From: Candidatus Methanorudis spinitermitis
GTDB lineage: Archaea; Methanobacteriota; Methanobacteria; Methanobacteriales; Methanobacteriaceae
Length of the DNA stretch: 64,000 nt
Direction of reading: 5' to 3'
Assembly (NCBI GenBank): GCA_031286225.1
Contig: JAITUQ010000007.1
Coordinates: 1 to 64,000, forward strand
Part shown: piece after piece, positions 22,532-54,895 of the stretch
Layout of the letters: every line of letters starts with the position of its first letter
Position numbering within the stretch: position 1 is the stretch's first letter
Notes under the pieces: generated by a model
Databases searched by the model: none
What the model was told of the DNA's origin: nothing
What the model saw: the letters and a program-made list of their open reading frames with translations, nothing else
Translations under genes and position numbers: made by a program

Positions 22532-25500
22532 ATGGAAGTTCCTGAAATTGTGAAAGATTTAGTTAAAAAATTCGAAGACAATATATATTCCTATAAGAAT
22601 CCAAAGTACAATGAAACAACAGTTAGACAGGAATTTATTGATCCATTATTTATAGCTTTAGGATGGGATGTAAATAATGAGCAAGGTTGGGCACCACAAT
22701 ATAGGGAAGTTATTCTTGAAGATGCTATAAAAATAGATGGAAAAACAAAAGCCCCTGATTATTCATTCACACTACATGGCCAGAGAATATTCTTTCTTGA
22801 AGCCAAAAAGCCAGCAGTAGATATTGTCAATGATAAATCACCAGCATATCAATTGAAAAGATATTCTTGGAGTGGAAAACTAGCACTATCTGTTCTAACA
22901 GACTTTGAACATTTAGCTATTTATGAAGCAAAAAGTAGGCCTAAAAAAACAGACAGCACAAAAATTGGAAGAGTAAAATTATACCATTATAAAGACTATA
23001 TTGAAAAATGGGAAGAGATATACAATTTACTTTCTAAAGATGCTGTATTGAAAGGTAGTTTTGATCGTTTTGCTAGTAAAAAAGTTAAAAAAGGAACCTC
23101 AGAAGTAGATGATGAATTTTTAAAAGAAATTGAAAATTGGAGACTTACATTAGCACGGAACATAGCTATTAGAAATAAAGAATTGTCTGTAGAAGATTTA
23201 AACTATGCAGTACAGTTAACAATAGATAGACTAATATTTTTAAGAATAGCTGAAGACAGAGGAATAGAACCTTATAAACAGCTATACAAGATCTTAGAAA
23301 AAGAAAATATATATCATGAATTTGGAAAGCTATGTCACAAAGCTGACGTGAAATATAACTCTGGATTATTCCATTTTAAAGAAGAAAAACAAATAAGCCA
23401 GCCAGCAGACACATTCACATTAGAACTTAATATAGACAATGGAGTATTTAAAGAAATCATTAAAAACTTATACTATCCAAACAGCCCTTATGAATTTTCA
23501 GTTTTATCTCCTGAAATACTTGGAAATGTTTATGAACAGTTTCTTGGAAAAGTTATAAGATTAACACCCTCTAATCAAGCAAAAATAGAAGAAAAACCAG
23601 AAGTCAAAAAAGCAGGAGGTGTATTCTACACACCACAATATATTGTAGATTACATTGTTAAAAACACAGTAGGAAAGCTAGTAATAAACAAAACACCAAA
23701 TCAAGTAGCTAAGCTGCGGATAGTTGATCCTGCATGTGGAAGTGGCTCATTCCTTCTTGGAGCATATAACTACCTACTCAAATGGCATATTGATTACTAC
23801 TCTAACTTAGAAAAACCTCCAAAAAACACCATATATCAAAGTAAAAATGGAAAATGGCACCTTACAATAGGAAAGAAAAAGGAAATCCTACTAAACAATA
23901 TTTATGGAGTAGACATAGATTTTAAAGCCGTAGAAGTAAGTAAATTAAGTTTACTACTAAAAGTACTTGAAGATGAAAACAAAGACGCATTAGAACAACA
24001 ACAAAAGCTAATACAAGAACGAGTACTACCTTACTTGGGAGATAATATAAGGTGTGGGAATTCATTAATAGCTACTGACATTTTAAAAGACGAAACATTA
24101 ACATTAGAAGAAATAGCTAATATTAATCCCTTTGATTGGGAAGAAGAGTTCCCAGCTATTTTTGAAAATGGAGGATTTGATGCAGTTATTGGTAATCCTC
24201 CTTATGTTCGCATCCAACTTTTAAAGCAGGATAAAAATTCTGTTAAGTATTTCAAAGAAAATTATGATTCTGCTGTTGGAAGTTATGATATTTATAATCT
24301 TTTTGTAGAAAAAGGATTAAAATTGATTGATAACCATTCCCATTTAGGATTTATTTTACCTAATAGGTTCATCTCAGCTAATTATGGAAAAGGATTGAGA
24401 GATTTAATAACTAATACTTCTTCATTAAATTCAATAATTAATTTTAAAGATAATCAAATCTTCAAAGGAGCCAGCACGTATACTTGTTTATTATTTTTAG
24501 AAAAAAATTCAAATAAGTTTAAATACGCTGAAATTAATGATTTAAATTTTAGCTCAAAAATTTTTAAAAGTATAGATGAAAATAATGACTTCGATGATGG
24601 AAATGTTAGTGTAGGTATTTTAGATAATTCTGTTTATTCAGAATCAGAATGGAGATTTTACATTGGGAAATCTGCAAATTTAGTTAATAAGCTAATGAGC
24701 ATGCCTATTAAATTGAATGATATTACAGAAAAAATATATGTTGGGCTTCAAACAAGTGCAGATAAAATATATATCTTGGACTTGGTAAATGATAAAGATG
24801 ATTTGTTGGAAGTTTATTCTCATCAAACTAAAAAGAATCATCTGATTGAGAAAAAAATTCTTAAAAAATATATTAAAGGTAAAGAAATTAAAAAATATCA
24901 CTTTAATGACCAAAATAAGTTTATTATATTCCCTTATATTTTAAATGAAAATGACTATGATTTAATTGAACAAAATGTTATGAAAGAAAAATATCCATTT
25001 TGTTGGAAATACTTAAAGGAAAATGAAAAAATCCTTAGATCTCGTGAAAATAATAAAATGAATGACAAAAATAAATGGTATGCTTTTACTTATCCTCGAA
25101 GTCTTTTAGAATATAGAAATAAAAAGATCATGACTCCTAATAGTGCTTTTAGTTCTTCATTTTCTTTTGATTCAGAGGGCAAATATTATATTACTGTTGG
25201 AGTAGCAGGAGGATACGCTATAAAATTAAAGAAAGATAATAATCTTAATGAATTTTATTTATTAGCTATTTTAAATTCTTCTCTAATGGATTTTTTAAAT
25301 AAAAAAATTGGAAAATCTTTAAGAGGTGGTTTTTACTCATTTGAAGGTAGAACAATTAAAAATTATCCTATTATAAAACTTTCTACTGATAAGCAGGATC
25401 CATTTATTGAATTAGCTGATAAAATGAACCAATTGAATAAGAAAATAGCTAATGTTAAATCTCCTCATGAAAAAAAATTAATAGAAAAACAGATTCTAAT

Positions 25501-25594
25501 TTCAGATAAAAGAATTAATGATTTTGTCTATGATTTATATGGGTTGAATGATGATGAAATTGACATTATTGAAAACGAATTAAGTGATTATTAA
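22532..25594 (+). CDS. Type IIG-like restriction-modification fusion enzyme (N6-adenine)
   Basis: A single 1020-residue protein that should both cut and methylate DNA. The N-terminus has a PD-(D/E)xK nuclease signature, Asp76 (PDYSF) and Glu90-Ala-Lys92 (FLEAKKP). A helical linker leads to a gamma-type adenine methyltransferase with motif I DPACGSGSFL (about 402-411) and motif IV NPPY (about 555). A C-terminal target-recognition region follows (from about 600, ending near FYSFEGRTIKNYPI). A GAGGTTGA SD precedes the ATG. Codon style shifts near 24130-24230, C-ending codons before and T-ending after, as if the recognition half had a different history. No separate specificity gene is present. 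Confidence 0.92.
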   Translation: MEVPEIVKDLVKKFEDNIYSYKNPKYNETTVRQEFIDPLFIALGWDVNNEQGWAPQYREVILEDAIKIDGKTKAPDYSFTLHGQRIFFLEAKKPAVDIVNDKSPAYQLKRYSWSGKLALSVLTDFEHLAIYEAKSRPKKTDSTKIGRVKLYHYKDYIEKWEEIYNLLSKDAVLKGSFDRFASKKVKKGTSEVDDEFLKEIENWRLTLARNIAIRNKELSVEDLNYAVQLTIDRLIFLRIAEDRGIEPYKQLYKILEKENIYHEFGKLCHKADVKYNSGLFHFKEEKQISQPADTFTLELNIDNGVFKEIIKNLYYPNSPYEFSVLSPEILGNVYEQFLGKVIRLTPSNQAKIEEKPEVKKAGGVFYTPQYIVDYIVKNTVGKLVINKTPNQVAKLRIVDPACGSGSFLLGAYNYLLKWHIDYYSNLEKPPKNTIYQSKNGKWHLTIGKKKEILLNNIYGVDIDFKAVEVSKLSLLLKVLEDENKDALEQQQKLIQERVLPYLGDNIRCGNSLIATDILKDETLTLEEIANINPFDWEEEFPAIFENGGFDAVIGNPPYVRIQLLKQDKNSVKYFKENYDSAVGSYDIYNLFVEKGLKLIDNHSHLGFILPNRFISANYGKGLRDLITNTSSLNSIINFKDNQIFKGASTYTCLLFLEKNSNKFKYAEINDLNFSSKIFKSIDENNDFDDGNVSVGILDNSVYSESEWRFYIGKSANLVNKLMSMPIKLNDITEKIYVGLQTSADKIYILDLVNDKDDLLEVYSHQTKKNHLIEKKILKKYIKGKEIKKYHFNDQNKFIIFPYILNENDYDLIEQNVMKEKYPFCWKYLKENEKILRSRENNKMNDKNKWYAFTYPRSLLEYRNKKIMTPNSAFSSSFSFDSEGKYYITVGVAGGYAIKLKKDNNLNEFYLLAILNSSLMDFLNKKIGKSLRGGFYSFEGRTIKNYPIIKLSTDKQDPFIELADKMNQLNKKIANVKSPHEKKLIEKQILISDKRINDFVYDLYGLNDDEIDIIENELSDY

Positions 25595-25762
25595 GATTTA
25601 TAGATAATATTGAGTGATAGCTAGTTTTTTTAGAGTTAATATAGGAAATATAAATTAAATAATTTAGATTGGATAACTATTATATTCAATGAGAAAATAG
25701 CTAATGTCCAATACTATTTTAATACTTTTCTATATATTTATTCAAGCTTTAATTTTTTATAA

Positions 25763-25861
25763 AGTAATCATAATTTCTGGAAAATGGATTATGATGATTT
25801 TTTAGAAGAAAGAAGAAAATTAATGGCTAAAAAAGTTAAAGAATACTTCATGAAATTGTAA
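25763..25861 (+). pseudogene. C-terminal gene relic, copy A
   Basis: The open stretch ends with FLEERRKLMAKKVKEYFMKL and a stop. It has no proper start, and an in-frame TAA lies directly upstream. It is repeated almost exactly at 26913-27017. The parent protein is not identified. The charged helical tail is like those closing some restriction-related proteins, but that is an impression only. Confidence 0.6.
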
Positions 25862-25971: not shown

Positions 25972-26340
25972 TTATAGAAACTTTTCACATTCTTCAATGA
26001 ATGATTTTGTATTGTTTATAATTTCTTCTGTTTCCTCATTAGTGAAATCAGAGAACATATCATAGTCTGCTGTTTCTCTGTCATTTAAAAGTTCAGAGTA
26101 GAAGTCAAATAAATCTTTGCTGAAATTTTTATCATTGACAAATATTTGACTAAATAATTTTCTTGTTCCATGATGAGTTCTTGGGTCTTTATCTTCTTTA
26201 AGAAGAAGTGCTATTACAACATAATATACCGAATAGTATGAACGGTTAATAGCTGTTTCATAGTGCCCCATATCGAGATTATCTTTAGCAATTTCAATAA
26301 ATTCTTTTGACCTTGCAAAATAAGCATCTACTTTATCCAA
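25972..26340 (-). CDS. HEPN-domain protein of an MNT/HEPN pair
   Basis: A 122-residue all-helical protein, partner of the nucleotidyltransferase encoded upstream, whose end it overlaps by 8 bases. HEPN features are AINRSYYSVYYVVIALLL (about 32-49), RTHHGTRKLF and the RETADYDMF signature near 92-100. I see no canonical RxxxxH RNase motif near the C-terminus, so this may be the 'ADY'-type HEPN group rather than an active RNase. No ATG is available: TTG at 26340 follows an AAGGTG SD, and GTG at 26349 is the alternative. Such pairs act as toxin-antitoxin or defence modules. Confidence 0.85.
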   Translation of the reverse strand: MDKVDAYFARSKEFIEIAKDNLDMGHYETAINRSYYSVYYVVIALLLKEDKDPRTHHGTRKLFSQIFVNDKNFSKDLFDFYSELLNDRETADYDMFSDFTNEETEEIINNTKSFIEECEKFL

Positions 26341-26638
26341 TAACAACACCTTCTTTTCTTATGTTAGAATAAAAAGGCATATCCTTATATTTTTGGTAAT
26401 GCTCCACGGGATTGATTTTAACAGAGATATCTTCCATTGTTTCAAGTAATATATCACTTGCTTTAGAATAAACATCTTTTTTTAATTTTTTGGTTTTATT
26501 AGTAGCTATAATAAGAATATCGATGTCGGAGTCTTTGGTATCATCTCCTCTTGCAACAGACCCAAATAGAATGATTTTTTCTATTTCTGGATGATTTAAA
26601 GATTTTGCAAAGTCTATAGCTAATTGTTTTCTATCCAT
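26333..26638 (-). CDS. Minimal nucleotidyltransferase (MNT) of the MNT/HEPN pair
   Basis: A 101-residue minimal nucleotidyltransferase of the pol-beta superfamily, with the catalytic pattern LFGSVARGDDTKDSDIDILI (Gly-Ser, then Asp-x-Asp), so it should be active. In studied pairs MNT proteins adenylylate or otherwise silence their HEPN partner. The ATG at 26638 has a GGGTG SD. The longer frame from GTG at 26647 would start inside the SD. Its 3' end overlaps the HEPN start, so the two are translationally coupled. Confidence 0.88.
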   Translation of the reverse strand: MDRKQLAIDFAKSLNHPEIEKIILFGSVARGDDTKDSDIDILIIATNKTKKLKKDVYSKASDILLETMEDISVKINPVEHYQKYKDMPFYSNIRKEGVVIG

Positions 26639-26912
26639 TAGAAACACCCTATTATATAATTTATTTTTTACTTTATATAATCTATATAAAATATAAATAA
26701 TTTTATGTTTTTTATCATATTTTAATTTTTTAAAATTTATAAACTTACCTAAATTAATTTATTTGTTAACAAAAATTATTATTTTATTTATTTTAAAAAA
26801 CTTTTTATTTTTTAAAAGCAGAAAAAACGAAATTTTTCTTTATTTTTATAAAAAACATAAATAAAACTTTTAATATTTGAATTTACTACAAAATCTTATT
26901 TTAAATTTTTAT

Positions 26913-27017
26913 AAAAGTAATCAGAATTTCTGGAAAATGAATTATGGTGATTTTTTAGAAGAAAGAAGAAAATTAATGGCTAAAAAAGTTAAAGAATATT
27001 TCATGAAATTATATTGA
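26913..27017 (+). pseudogene. C-terminal gene relic, copy B
   Basis: A near-identical second copy of the relic at 25763-25861, reading SNQNFWKMNYGDFLEERRK and on to the same KKVKEYFMKL tail plus a Tyr before the stop. Just after it, 27020-27100 reads FDENEKTHNEYVKLAKDIFH in another open stretch, probably a further relic. The two copies flank the MNT/HEPN pair. Confidence 0.6.
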
Positions 27018-27152
27018 TATTTGATGAAAACGAAAAAACACATAATGAGTATGTAAAATTAGCTAAGGATATATTTCATGTTAAAATTAATATAATATAG
27101 TTATAATAATAAAATTTATTTTAAAATAAATATTTAATTTAAGGAAATAGGA

Positions 27153-27199
27153 CCTAAAAATCGGATTTTCCGATTCTTAGGCACCGTCCACCAAACCTT
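27153..27199 (+). ncRNA. Long hairpin followed by anti-SD motif, copy 1
   Basis: Positions 27153-27181 fold into a 13-bp stem (arms CCTAAAAATCGGA and TCCGATTCTTAGG, one mismatch) with a 3-base loop. Outside it GGAC can also pair with GTCC. The 14-mer GTCCACCAAACCTT follows at 27186-27199 and recurs exactly at 27350-27363. The GC content stands out in A/T-only DNA. It may be a small RNA, a leader, or a palindromic end of a mobile element. No known RNA family was recognised. Confidence 0.45.
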
Positions 27200-27249
27200 T
27201 ATTTAATTTATTGTAATTTTTAGTATATAAATATGTTGATAATAAATAT

Positions 27250-27260
27250 AATTATATATG
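27250..27260 (+). promoter_or_regulatory. TATA-like element before the 29-residue peptide leader
   Basis: AATTATATATG at 27250-27260 would place a transcript start near 27283, just ahead of the AGGTG SD of the 8-codon ORF. TATA-like strings are common in this composition, so support is modest. Confidence 0.3.
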
Positions 27261-27293
27261 TAATAAAAAAGTAATACTATTATGTAGGTGCTT

Positions 27294-27320
27294 ATGTTGG
27301 AAAGCTGGATAATTTCGTGA
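27294..27320 (+). CDS. Possible 8-residue leader peptide
   Basis: ATG with an AGGTG SD three bases upstream encodes MLESWIIS and ends at TGA. It lies 22 bases before a terminator-like hairpin and about 90 bases before a 29-codon ORF, the order seen in attenuators. Very short and unproven. Confidence 0.25.
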   Translation: MLESWIIS

Positions 27321-27342
27321 TATCACCAAATATTGGGAAAAT

Positions 27343-27384
27343 AAAACCTGTCCACCAAACCTTAAATGGGCGGTTTTTATTTTT
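27343..27384 (+). terminator. Terminator-like hairpin containing anti-SD motif, copy 2
   Basis: AAAACC-(T)-GTCCA at 27343-27354 pairs with TGGGCGGTTTT at 27367-27377: 11 bp with one bulged T and a 12-base loop. The T-rich tract TTTTTATTTTT follows at 27374-27384. The 14-mer GTCCACCAAACCTT (27350-27363) lies in the stem and loop. Its TCCACC and CCT are complementary to the SD AGGAGGTGGA at 27396-27405, so this strand could either form the hairpin or mask the SD. Confidence 0.45.
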
Positions 27385-27410
27385 ACTATCTAAATAGGAG
27401 GTGGATAATA

Positions 27411-27500
27411 ATGGACATCTATTATTATTTATCAATCACTTTATTGATAGTATTAATAGTATACAACTTACTATCCATTTACTCACTATTTAACAAGTAA
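27411..27500 (+). CDS. 29-residue single-pass membrane peptide (novel small ORF)
   Basis: The ORF begins at an ATG with an almost perfect SD, AGGAGGTGGA, five bases upstream. The product is MDIYYYLSITLLIVLIVYNL plus LSIYSLFNK: one hydrophobic helix of about 20 residues with Tyr-rich flanks and a final Lys. This is the size and shape of bacterial type I toxins and of tiny complex subunits such as KdpF or CydX, but no partner complex is encoded nearby. The leader contains two motif copies able to pair with the SD. It lies inside a broken copy of the MNT/HEPN region. Confidence 0.5.
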   Translation: MDIYYYLSITLLIVLIVYNLLSIYSLFNK

Positions 27501-27570
27501 TTGTCTCAATGGTTCATTTTAAAACATAAGCAACCTACATATTTATTTTAATAAGTATATATTACTCTAA

Positions 27571-27861: not shown

Positions 27862-27972
27862 AATTAATAAAAATTAATAAAAATTAATAAAAATTAATAA
27901 AAATTAATAAAAATTAATAAAAATTAATAAAAATTAATAAAAATTAATAAAAATTAATAAAAATTAATAAAA
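27862..27972. repeat. 10-nt tandem repeat, about 11 copies (AAATTAATAA)
   Basis: Ten exact copies of AAATTAATAA run from 27871 to 27970, with a near-complete copy in front. The array ends 27 bases after the stop codon of the methylthiotransferase gene (27999), in the gap behind it. Such arrays change copy number easily, so it could serve as a strain marker. Confidence 0.92.
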
Positions 27973-54237: not shown

Positions 54238-54434
54238 TATAATACCTCCACATAGAAATAATAATCATCAAAGATAGATAATTAAATTATAGTAATAATA
54301 TAGAATAGTCATGTATAATACTACAAATTACATTTCATATAGAATAAGTTAATATAATTCCATATATAACTTAACATTAAATAAAAATATTATCATTATA
54401 ATATCTTTCATTAAAATAATTAGTAATCCTTATA

Positions 54435-54895
54435 TTTAAATCTTGCTATAATCAATGGTAATATGGCATCCGATTAACTTATAACTTATAAATTAGCAAT
54501 TCAATTAACATTAAAAAGATTATAAATAATTTTAAAAATATCTAAAATAATATAGACGGATATCTTAAAAAATAAGTAACAATAAAATTATTTCAATTAA
54601 TAATGAATAATAAATAAAAAAAAGAAAAAATATTTGATTATAGCCTTGGTAATTCGTAATTCTAAGATTTAAATCTTAGTATAATCAATGATAATCTGGC
54701 ATCCGATTAACTTATAACTTATAATAAGCTATTCTATTAAGATTAAAAAGATTATAAATAATTTTAAAAATATCTAAAATAATATTAAATGAATATCTTA
54801 AAAAATAAGTAATAATAAAATTACTTCAATTAATAATAATTAATAAATTAAAAAGATATTTAGTTATAGCTCCCAAATTAAAAAGTTATTAATGA
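54435..54895. repeat. Two imperfect copies of a ~230-nt noncoding unit
   Basis: Unit 1 (from 54435) and unit 2 (from 54668) share most of their length, with a 233-nt period. The best-kept part is GGCATCCGATTAACTTATAA at 54465 and 54698. TAAAAAGATTATAAATAATT and ATATCTTAAAAAATAAGTAA are also shared. No ORF runs through either copy. It could be a duplicated small RNA gene, a promoter region or a decayed mobile repeat. The flanks up to 55177 are plain AT-rich. Confidence 0.85.

Follow-up and report, generated by a model that had tools for sequence, protein, structure and literature searches.

A type I toxin-antitoxin-like module predicted at a small-peptide locus of a methanogenic archaeon

What would an archaeon do with a 14-nt motif that occurs twice at one locus, first beside a hairpin and then inside another, just ahead of a gene for a 29-residue membrane peptide? 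The locus lies in a window of 64,000 nucleotides (contig JAITUQ010000007.1, positions 1 to 64,000), which comes from Candidatus Methanorudis spinitermitis. A first-pass annotation, made from the window alone, had read the locus as a type I toxin or an attenuator. We find that it is very probably a type I toxin-antitoxin-like module, a reading that comes from comparing sequences and in which the earlier guess of a type I toxin gains good support from relatives and from co-variation of the motif copies. The module is best read as a tisB/istR gene order combined with a hok/aapA-like mRNA fold.

All elements listed for 27153-27500 by the first-pass annotation are present in the sequence (Table 1), including the hairpin that holds motif copy 2 and the 29-codon single-helix ORF with its Shine-Dalgarno (SD) sequence AGGAGGTGGA, but several of them take on another meaning. 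The motif GTCCACCAAACCTT occurs at 27186-27199 (copy 1) and, in exact identity, at 27350-27363 (copy 2). With up to one mismatch allowed, the 14-mer has two sites in the 1.91-Mb genome, both at this locus, and among GC-containing repeat pairs of the 64-kb window whose copies are 80-400 nt apart, this one alone has a box A behind copy 1. The 13-bp hairpin at 27153-27181 is there, but it had been read on the plus strand and pairs better on the minus strand, where it has 14 bp including one G-U; on the plus strand that pair is an A-C mismatch. The TATA-like element is likewise real, but its role would be that of a small RNA promoter on the minus strand, and the 8-codon ORF at 27294-27320 exists in the window but is not conserved in relatives. 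An Rfam search of the window returned tRNAs only, with no credible match at the locus.

Table 1. Features of the locus, in window coordinates.
Feature	Position	Strand	Basis
Box A TTTATATA of the divergent promoter of the predicted antitoxin sRNA	27224..27231	-	exact TTTAWATA in 11/11 loci
Predicted antitoxin sRNA, ~50 nt or somewhat longer, ends inferred	27152..27201	-	fold z-score, shared layout
Predicted sRNA antisense arm (reverse complement of motif copy 1)	27186..27199	-	cognate duplex energy
Predicted sRNA 3' stem-loop	27152..27182	-	14-bp stem with G-U
Probable weak box A of the peptide mRNA, ATTATATA, 1 mismatch	27251..27258	+	inferred
Predicted peptide mRNA, approximate ends	27278..27545	+	fold of 27250-27555
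5' strand of the predicted 5'-3' long-distance interaction	27281..27298	+	pairs with 27523-27541
Predicted target hairpin, motif copy 2 in loop	27343..27377	+	predicted in both locus groups
Motif copy 2, putative antisense target site	27350..27363	+	exact copy of 27186-27199
Shine-Dalgarno AGGAGGTGGA, sequestered in the predicted mRNA fold	27396..27405	+	unpaired probability
29-aa single-helix membrane peptide MDIYYYLSITLLIVLIVYNLLSIYSLFNK, putative toxin	27411..27500	+	homologues in 7 genomes
3' UTR strand of the predicted 5'-3' long-distance interaction	27523..27541	+	pairing energy

The setting of the locus agrees in part with what had been described. Defence genes do lie nearby: a type IIG restriction enzyme-methyltransferase (22532-25594; PADLOC REase_MTase_IIG, E 1.9e-260) stands beside a HEPN/MNT pair (25972-26647, minus strand), and the two form a small defence cluster. 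The pair itself, which had been called a broken MNT/HEPN duplication, is apparently intact; what is duplicated is a 113-nt direct repeat of 92% identity (25748-25860 and 26901-27013) that flanks the pair, outside both genes, and that also leaves the antisense/peptide locus outside. The repeat, which encodes the short fragment DFLEERRKLMAKKVKEYFMKL, may mark how the HEPN/MNT module was inserted. Two further repeats were seen in the window, a tandem array of ~11 copies of the 10-bp AT-only unit ATTAATAAAA at 27864-27970, between the locus and the next gene, and two tandem copies of a ~232-nt non-coding unit at 54417-54854, in pieces 88-100% identical and with the conserved core TGGCATCCGATTAACTTATAACTTATAA.

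Homologous loci, which the first-pass annotation had proposed to look for, form a family. A peptide profile search of the genomes of the phylum (n=152), with two refinement rounds, yielded 11 intact peptide loci in five genera; the distribution is sparse (7/152 genomes), and all seven genomes are Methanobacteriaceae. The window, G106, G010, G011, G012 and G016 contribute one locus each and G104 (Candidatus Methanoflexus mossambicus, whose genus is known from the guts of termites and cockroaches) contributes five, together with a sixth copy that is a pseudogene broken by a stop codon. The order of elements is the same in all 11 loci, namely hairpin, motif 1, box A, leader, motif 2 in a hairpin, SD and peptide, and the neighbouring genes differ between genomes, except for a position common to G010 and G012. 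A covariance model of the G104/G016 leader recovered the same six loci and others only marginally, and searches of phages, plasmids and IMG/VR did not find the peptide.

The searches also returned partial and rejected matches. At the DNA level, two genomes of the same genus as the window stood out: the peptide half is present in G106, and G105 matches the hairpin/motif-1 half (85% over 137 nt; L034, G105:C89, 123-258, minus strand). The G105 contig continues for ~120 nt more, in which no toxin leader could be recognised, which makes the G105 copy a possible orphan antitoxin. The other whole-locus DNA matches listed were short, AT-rich and noise-like; weak peptide matches (for example L063, L065, L066, L068 and L076) fell in unrelated coding or AT-rich sequence from which the layout is absent; and a near-motif repeat in G106:C217 lies inside a repetitive protein gene and is unrelated. 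G106 carries a second hairpin and TATA unit, resembling an antitoxin gene, ~500 nt upstream of its toxin (L036, G106:C3); the arm of this hairpin, TAGCCCGTATTATTTAC, has no second copy in the G106 genome, and this unit is another possible orphan antitoxin. In G104, three intact tandem modules, each with its own motif, are accompanied by a fourth peptide broken by a stop codon (L055, G104:C115, 8200-10116), and this tandem array is a natural series of diverging antitoxin specificities.

Is the peptide the kind of product that a type I system encodes? The peptides are 28-30 aa long (37 aa in one copy, through a terminal frameshift) and have one strongly hydrophobic helix each, with 19-residue hydropathy values of 2.29-2.93 (2.29 in the window), and they belong with the small (under 60 aa) hydrophobic peptides typical of type I toxins. 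Coding-sequence comparisons indicate that the peptide is under purifying selection: dN was below dS in five of the five pairs tested, and the window and G106 peptides differ with a dN of 0.22 and a dS of 0.97. Searches of Pfam, NCBIfam and PDB gave no family match and no known type I toxin family, the best sub-threshold NCBIfam matches being PSM-delta (E 0.02) and the type I toxin YonT (E 0.041), so the label "toxin" rests on layout and hydrophobicity. A KdpF-like subunit, considered for its length, was set aside: no kdp gene was seen beside the window locus and Pfam gave no match.

The antisense RNA and its mRNA target could both be real and the peptide an ordinary small membrane protein, such as a transporter or enzyme subunit or a signalling peptide; its lack of a match to known toxin families would fit, as would purifying selection, which is expected of any conserved small protein. 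We regard this as unlikely, however, since no conserved partner gene accompanies the loci, whose neighbours differ save at the shared G010/G012 position, and since the family has several traits typical of type I toxins: paralogues both in tandem and dispersed, each with a private antitoxin, a pseudogene among them, a sparse distribution and a heavily sequestered SD. We keep to the reading of the peptide as a putative toxin.

The antitoxin would be encoded on the opposite strand. Each of the 11 loci has a perfect box A, TTTAWATA, on the minus strand, a match with a chance of ~0.8% per locus, and its centre is ~25-28 nt before the first antisense base wherever the helix is unambiguous, a near-constant spacing; the box A of the window (27231-27224) stands one promoter length from the anti-motif. 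The predicted window transcript has a single-stranded 5' arm, AAGGTTTGGTGGAC, whose 5' end is an exact antisense match for motif copy 2, and a 3' stem-loop (fold z-score -3.6), and this layout is alike in all 11 loci. The stem-loop probably ends the small RNA: T-rich tracts follow it in relatives, most weakly in the window locus. The hairpin also points to the minus strand, on which a pair in the window and G104C copies reads G-U; the plus strand would have A-C there.

The pairing between this RNA and the peptide mRNA appears to be private to each locus. The motif sequence differs in nearly every locus and motif 1 matches motif 2 within each, so that the copies co-vary, the compensatory change for which the first-pass annotation had proposed to look. 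Among 11 x 11 combinations of sRNA and mRNA, the mean duplex energy was -28.2 kcal/mol for cognate and -13.4 kcal/mol for non-cognate pairs, and every sRNA and every mRNA paired best with its cognate partner, the sole exception being G010 and G012, which are nearly identical; none of 200,000 partner permutations matched the observed energy sum. The window sRNA gave -29.0 kcal/mol with its own motif 2 as against -8.5 to -16.0 kcal/mol with non-cognate mRNAs, and each of the five G104 paralogues, which share one genome, prefers its own partner. In the control with copy 1 read from the sense strand, the values were -13.9 kcal/mol for cognate pairs and -11.8 kcal/mol otherwise. The sequence comparison therefore favours motif 1, read from the minus strand, as a putative antisense RNA against copy 2, and the features expected of an antitoxin RNA gene on the opposite strand and complementary to the toxin mRNA recur in 11/11 loci. 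The earlier suggestion that copy 1 acts in trans as a separate small RNA holds for the small RNA but not for the sense strand on which it had been placed.

Direct repeats often serve as operators, and with copy 1 adjoining a promoter and copy 2 downstream of it, the two could be bound as DNA by a repressor of the peptide promoter with no antisense RNA involved. We find this highly improbable. The motif differs between loci, even among paralogues of one genome, and no regulator gene lies beside them; the minus-strand promoter is always behind copy 1 at near-fixed spacing, and for both locus groups copy 2 is predicted to be part of an RNA hairpin. The changes between copies also have the marks of RNA pairing. 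All seven transitions from motif 1 to motif 2 are C>T, with none in the reverse direction, although these events are few and partly non-independent (two neighbour each other, and one may be common to G010 and G011); C>T is tolerated because a G of the minus-strand sRNA still pairs with U, whereas the reverse change would break the pair. Where copy 2 has insertions, in G010, G011 and G012, the RNA helix is preserved apart from a bulge. The four A/T transversions between motif copies are confined to G106 and the margin of the G016 helix.

The peptide mRNA, to which the predicted antisense RNA would bind, appears to be folded back on itself. The region 27250-27555 folds at -75.3 kcal/mol (z -5.6), a value that none of 100 shuffles equalled, and in it 27281-27298 pairs with 27523-27541 at -24.7 kcal/mol; relatives also pair the 5' end with the 3' UTR, and this 5'-3' pairing had been overlooked in the first-pass annotation. 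With alignments as its sole input, RNAalifold recovered the target hairpin as well as the 5'-3' helix for each of the two locus groups. For the 5'-3' helix of the G104/G016 group, 93.3% of cells are paired compared with at most 45.4% when the partners are slid, none of 500 shuffles reaches the observed covariation score, and there are double-sided changes, with C-G, A-U and U-A all present at one pair of columns; the pairing is partly broken in G104A. The SD is closed, with a mean unpaired probability of 0.03 in the window and 0.00-0.37 over all full-length mRNAs, and the hairpin directly upstream of it exposes the motif 2 loop bases (unpaired probability 0.9-1.0 in the window) in most loci, least in G104A. 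A 5'-3' long-distance interaction and a sequestered SD, the features of hok/aapA-like mRNAs, are both found in these predicted folds. The plus-strand box A of the peptide has 1-2 mismatches across loci, which suggests a promoter weaker than that of the sRNA; in the window its centre is 29 nt upstream of a GTAGG element near the predicted mRNA 5' end.

This fold bears on the proposals that both motif copies mask the SD and that the locus is a cis attenuator, with motif 2 as the mask, the 8-codon ORF as leader peptide and motif 1 as a sense-strand RNA. The TCCACC of the window motif is indeed complementary to the GGTGGA of the SD, and a terminator-like hairpin does lie upstream of the SD, but the window SD pairs mainly with coding-region sequence rather than with the motif, in the G104/G016 group no complementarity between motif 2 and the SD is evident, and the terminator-like hairpin is itself the one that holds the antisense target. 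Relatives lack the 8-codon ORF, copy 1 lies upstream of the predicted mRNA promoter, and on the sense strand it has no comparable cognate preference. An attenuator would call for a conserved leader peptide ORF and an alternative terminator/antiterminator, a description that the loci do not fit, and we give attenuation almost no credence. A type III system, in which a tandem-repeat RNA binds an endoribonuclease, does not describe the locus either, given a membrane-helix peptide and an RNA with one arm and one stem-loop.

Sequence comparison shows the specificity of the pairing, the minus-strand promoter with its hairpin, the fold of the mRNA and selection on the peptide; for the type I-like module, we infer expression, repression, toxicity and activation as follows. 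Two divergent promoters would lie between the genes, the stronger-looking one, with its perfect box A, making the short antitoxin RNA from the minus strand and the weaker-looking one making the mRNA for the 29-aa membrane peptide from the plus strand. The 5' end of this mRNA would pair with its 3' UTR, the SD would be sequestered, and the hairpin upstream of it would display the target in its loop, where the 5' arm of the sRNA could pair and leave the mRNA untranslated or marked for decay. Were the sRNA depleted, or an end of the mRNA trimmed, the peptide would be made, would insert into the membrane, and would slow or kill the cell. In silico removal of 45 nt from the 3' end leaves the SD closed in most loci, which makes the activating step uncertain; 5' processing as in tisB, or co-transcriptional translation, is possible. 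To our knowledge, archaea generally lack a bacterial-type RNase III, and repression would for this reason probably act through blocked initiation or another nuclease. We think it reasonably likely that the loci represent a type I family that is native to Archaea and probably arose independently of the bacterial ones; private antisense motifs would keep its paralogues orthogonal, its mRNAs would have a hok-like fold-back, and silencing would proceed without bacterial RNase III.

According to a 2025 paper that presents the first type I system from cyanobacteria, such systems had been known from no more than a few phyla, all of them bacterial (PMC12390103), and we found no report of an archaeal type I toxin-antitoxin system in the open-access literature searched. 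If our reading is true, antisense control of toxic membrane peptides reaches a second domain of life, whose members differ from bacteria in membranes, transcription machinery and RNA decay. The 11 loci, five of them paralogues of one genome, offer material for studying how antisense specificities diverge, and the combination of a divergent box A, a repeated motif and a fold-back mRNA provides a search recipe for archaeal systems missed by homology searches.

Among archaeal RNAs, the CreTA toxin-antitoxin pairs, in which the toxin is itself an RNA and which are tied to CRISPR-Cas, share with the present loci an RNA-based antitoxin; they differ from the locus described here, whose predicted toxin is a peptide and which showed no Cas gene. 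Methanosarcina mazei sRNA162 base-pairs with mRNAs in a methanogen (PMC3510493), so antisense repression is feasible in such cells; sRNA162 is, however, not described as part of a toxin-antitoxin pair and its layout is unrelated. The parallels in gene order and mRNA fold are bacterial. In tisB/istR-1, zor-orz, shoB-ohsC and dinQ-agrB of E. coli, a divergent sRNA is complementary to a long toxin 5' UTR; TisB is a hydrophobic peptide of 29 aa, the complementarity between tisB and IstR-1 spans 21 nt, and RNase III has been linked to repression of systems of this type (PMC4147584). The archaeal loci have the tisB/istR-type arrangement, with a divergent, non-overlapping sRNA gene upstream of the toxin and a short exact complementarity in the 5' UTR, and the window locus also has a 29-aa hydrophobic peptide. 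No sequence homology to tisB/istR-1 was detected, and unlike that system the archaeal loci place the target in the loop of a hairpin that immediately precedes the SD, in an mRNA with a predicted 5'-3' fold-back. Such a fold-back is known from hok and from aapA of Helicobacter pylori, in which a 5'-3' long-distance interaction and a sequestered SD keep the mRNA inert; aapA, too, occurs at more than one locus in a genome, as a set of paralogues, and in the case tested, aapA3, the antisense RNAs of other paralogues could not take the place of its own (PMC6733600). With aapA/isoA and hok/sok the archaeal loci share the predicted fold-back and the sequestered SD, and with aapA several paralogous loci in one genome and an antisense specificity that is private, here by prediction. 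IsoA, in contrast, overlaps its target on the opposite strand, whereas the archaeal sRNA gene lies upstream and would pair through the duplicated motif, and the archaeal peptide is unrelated to those of either system. What is new is the combination of this gene order with this mRNA fold, and the peptide.
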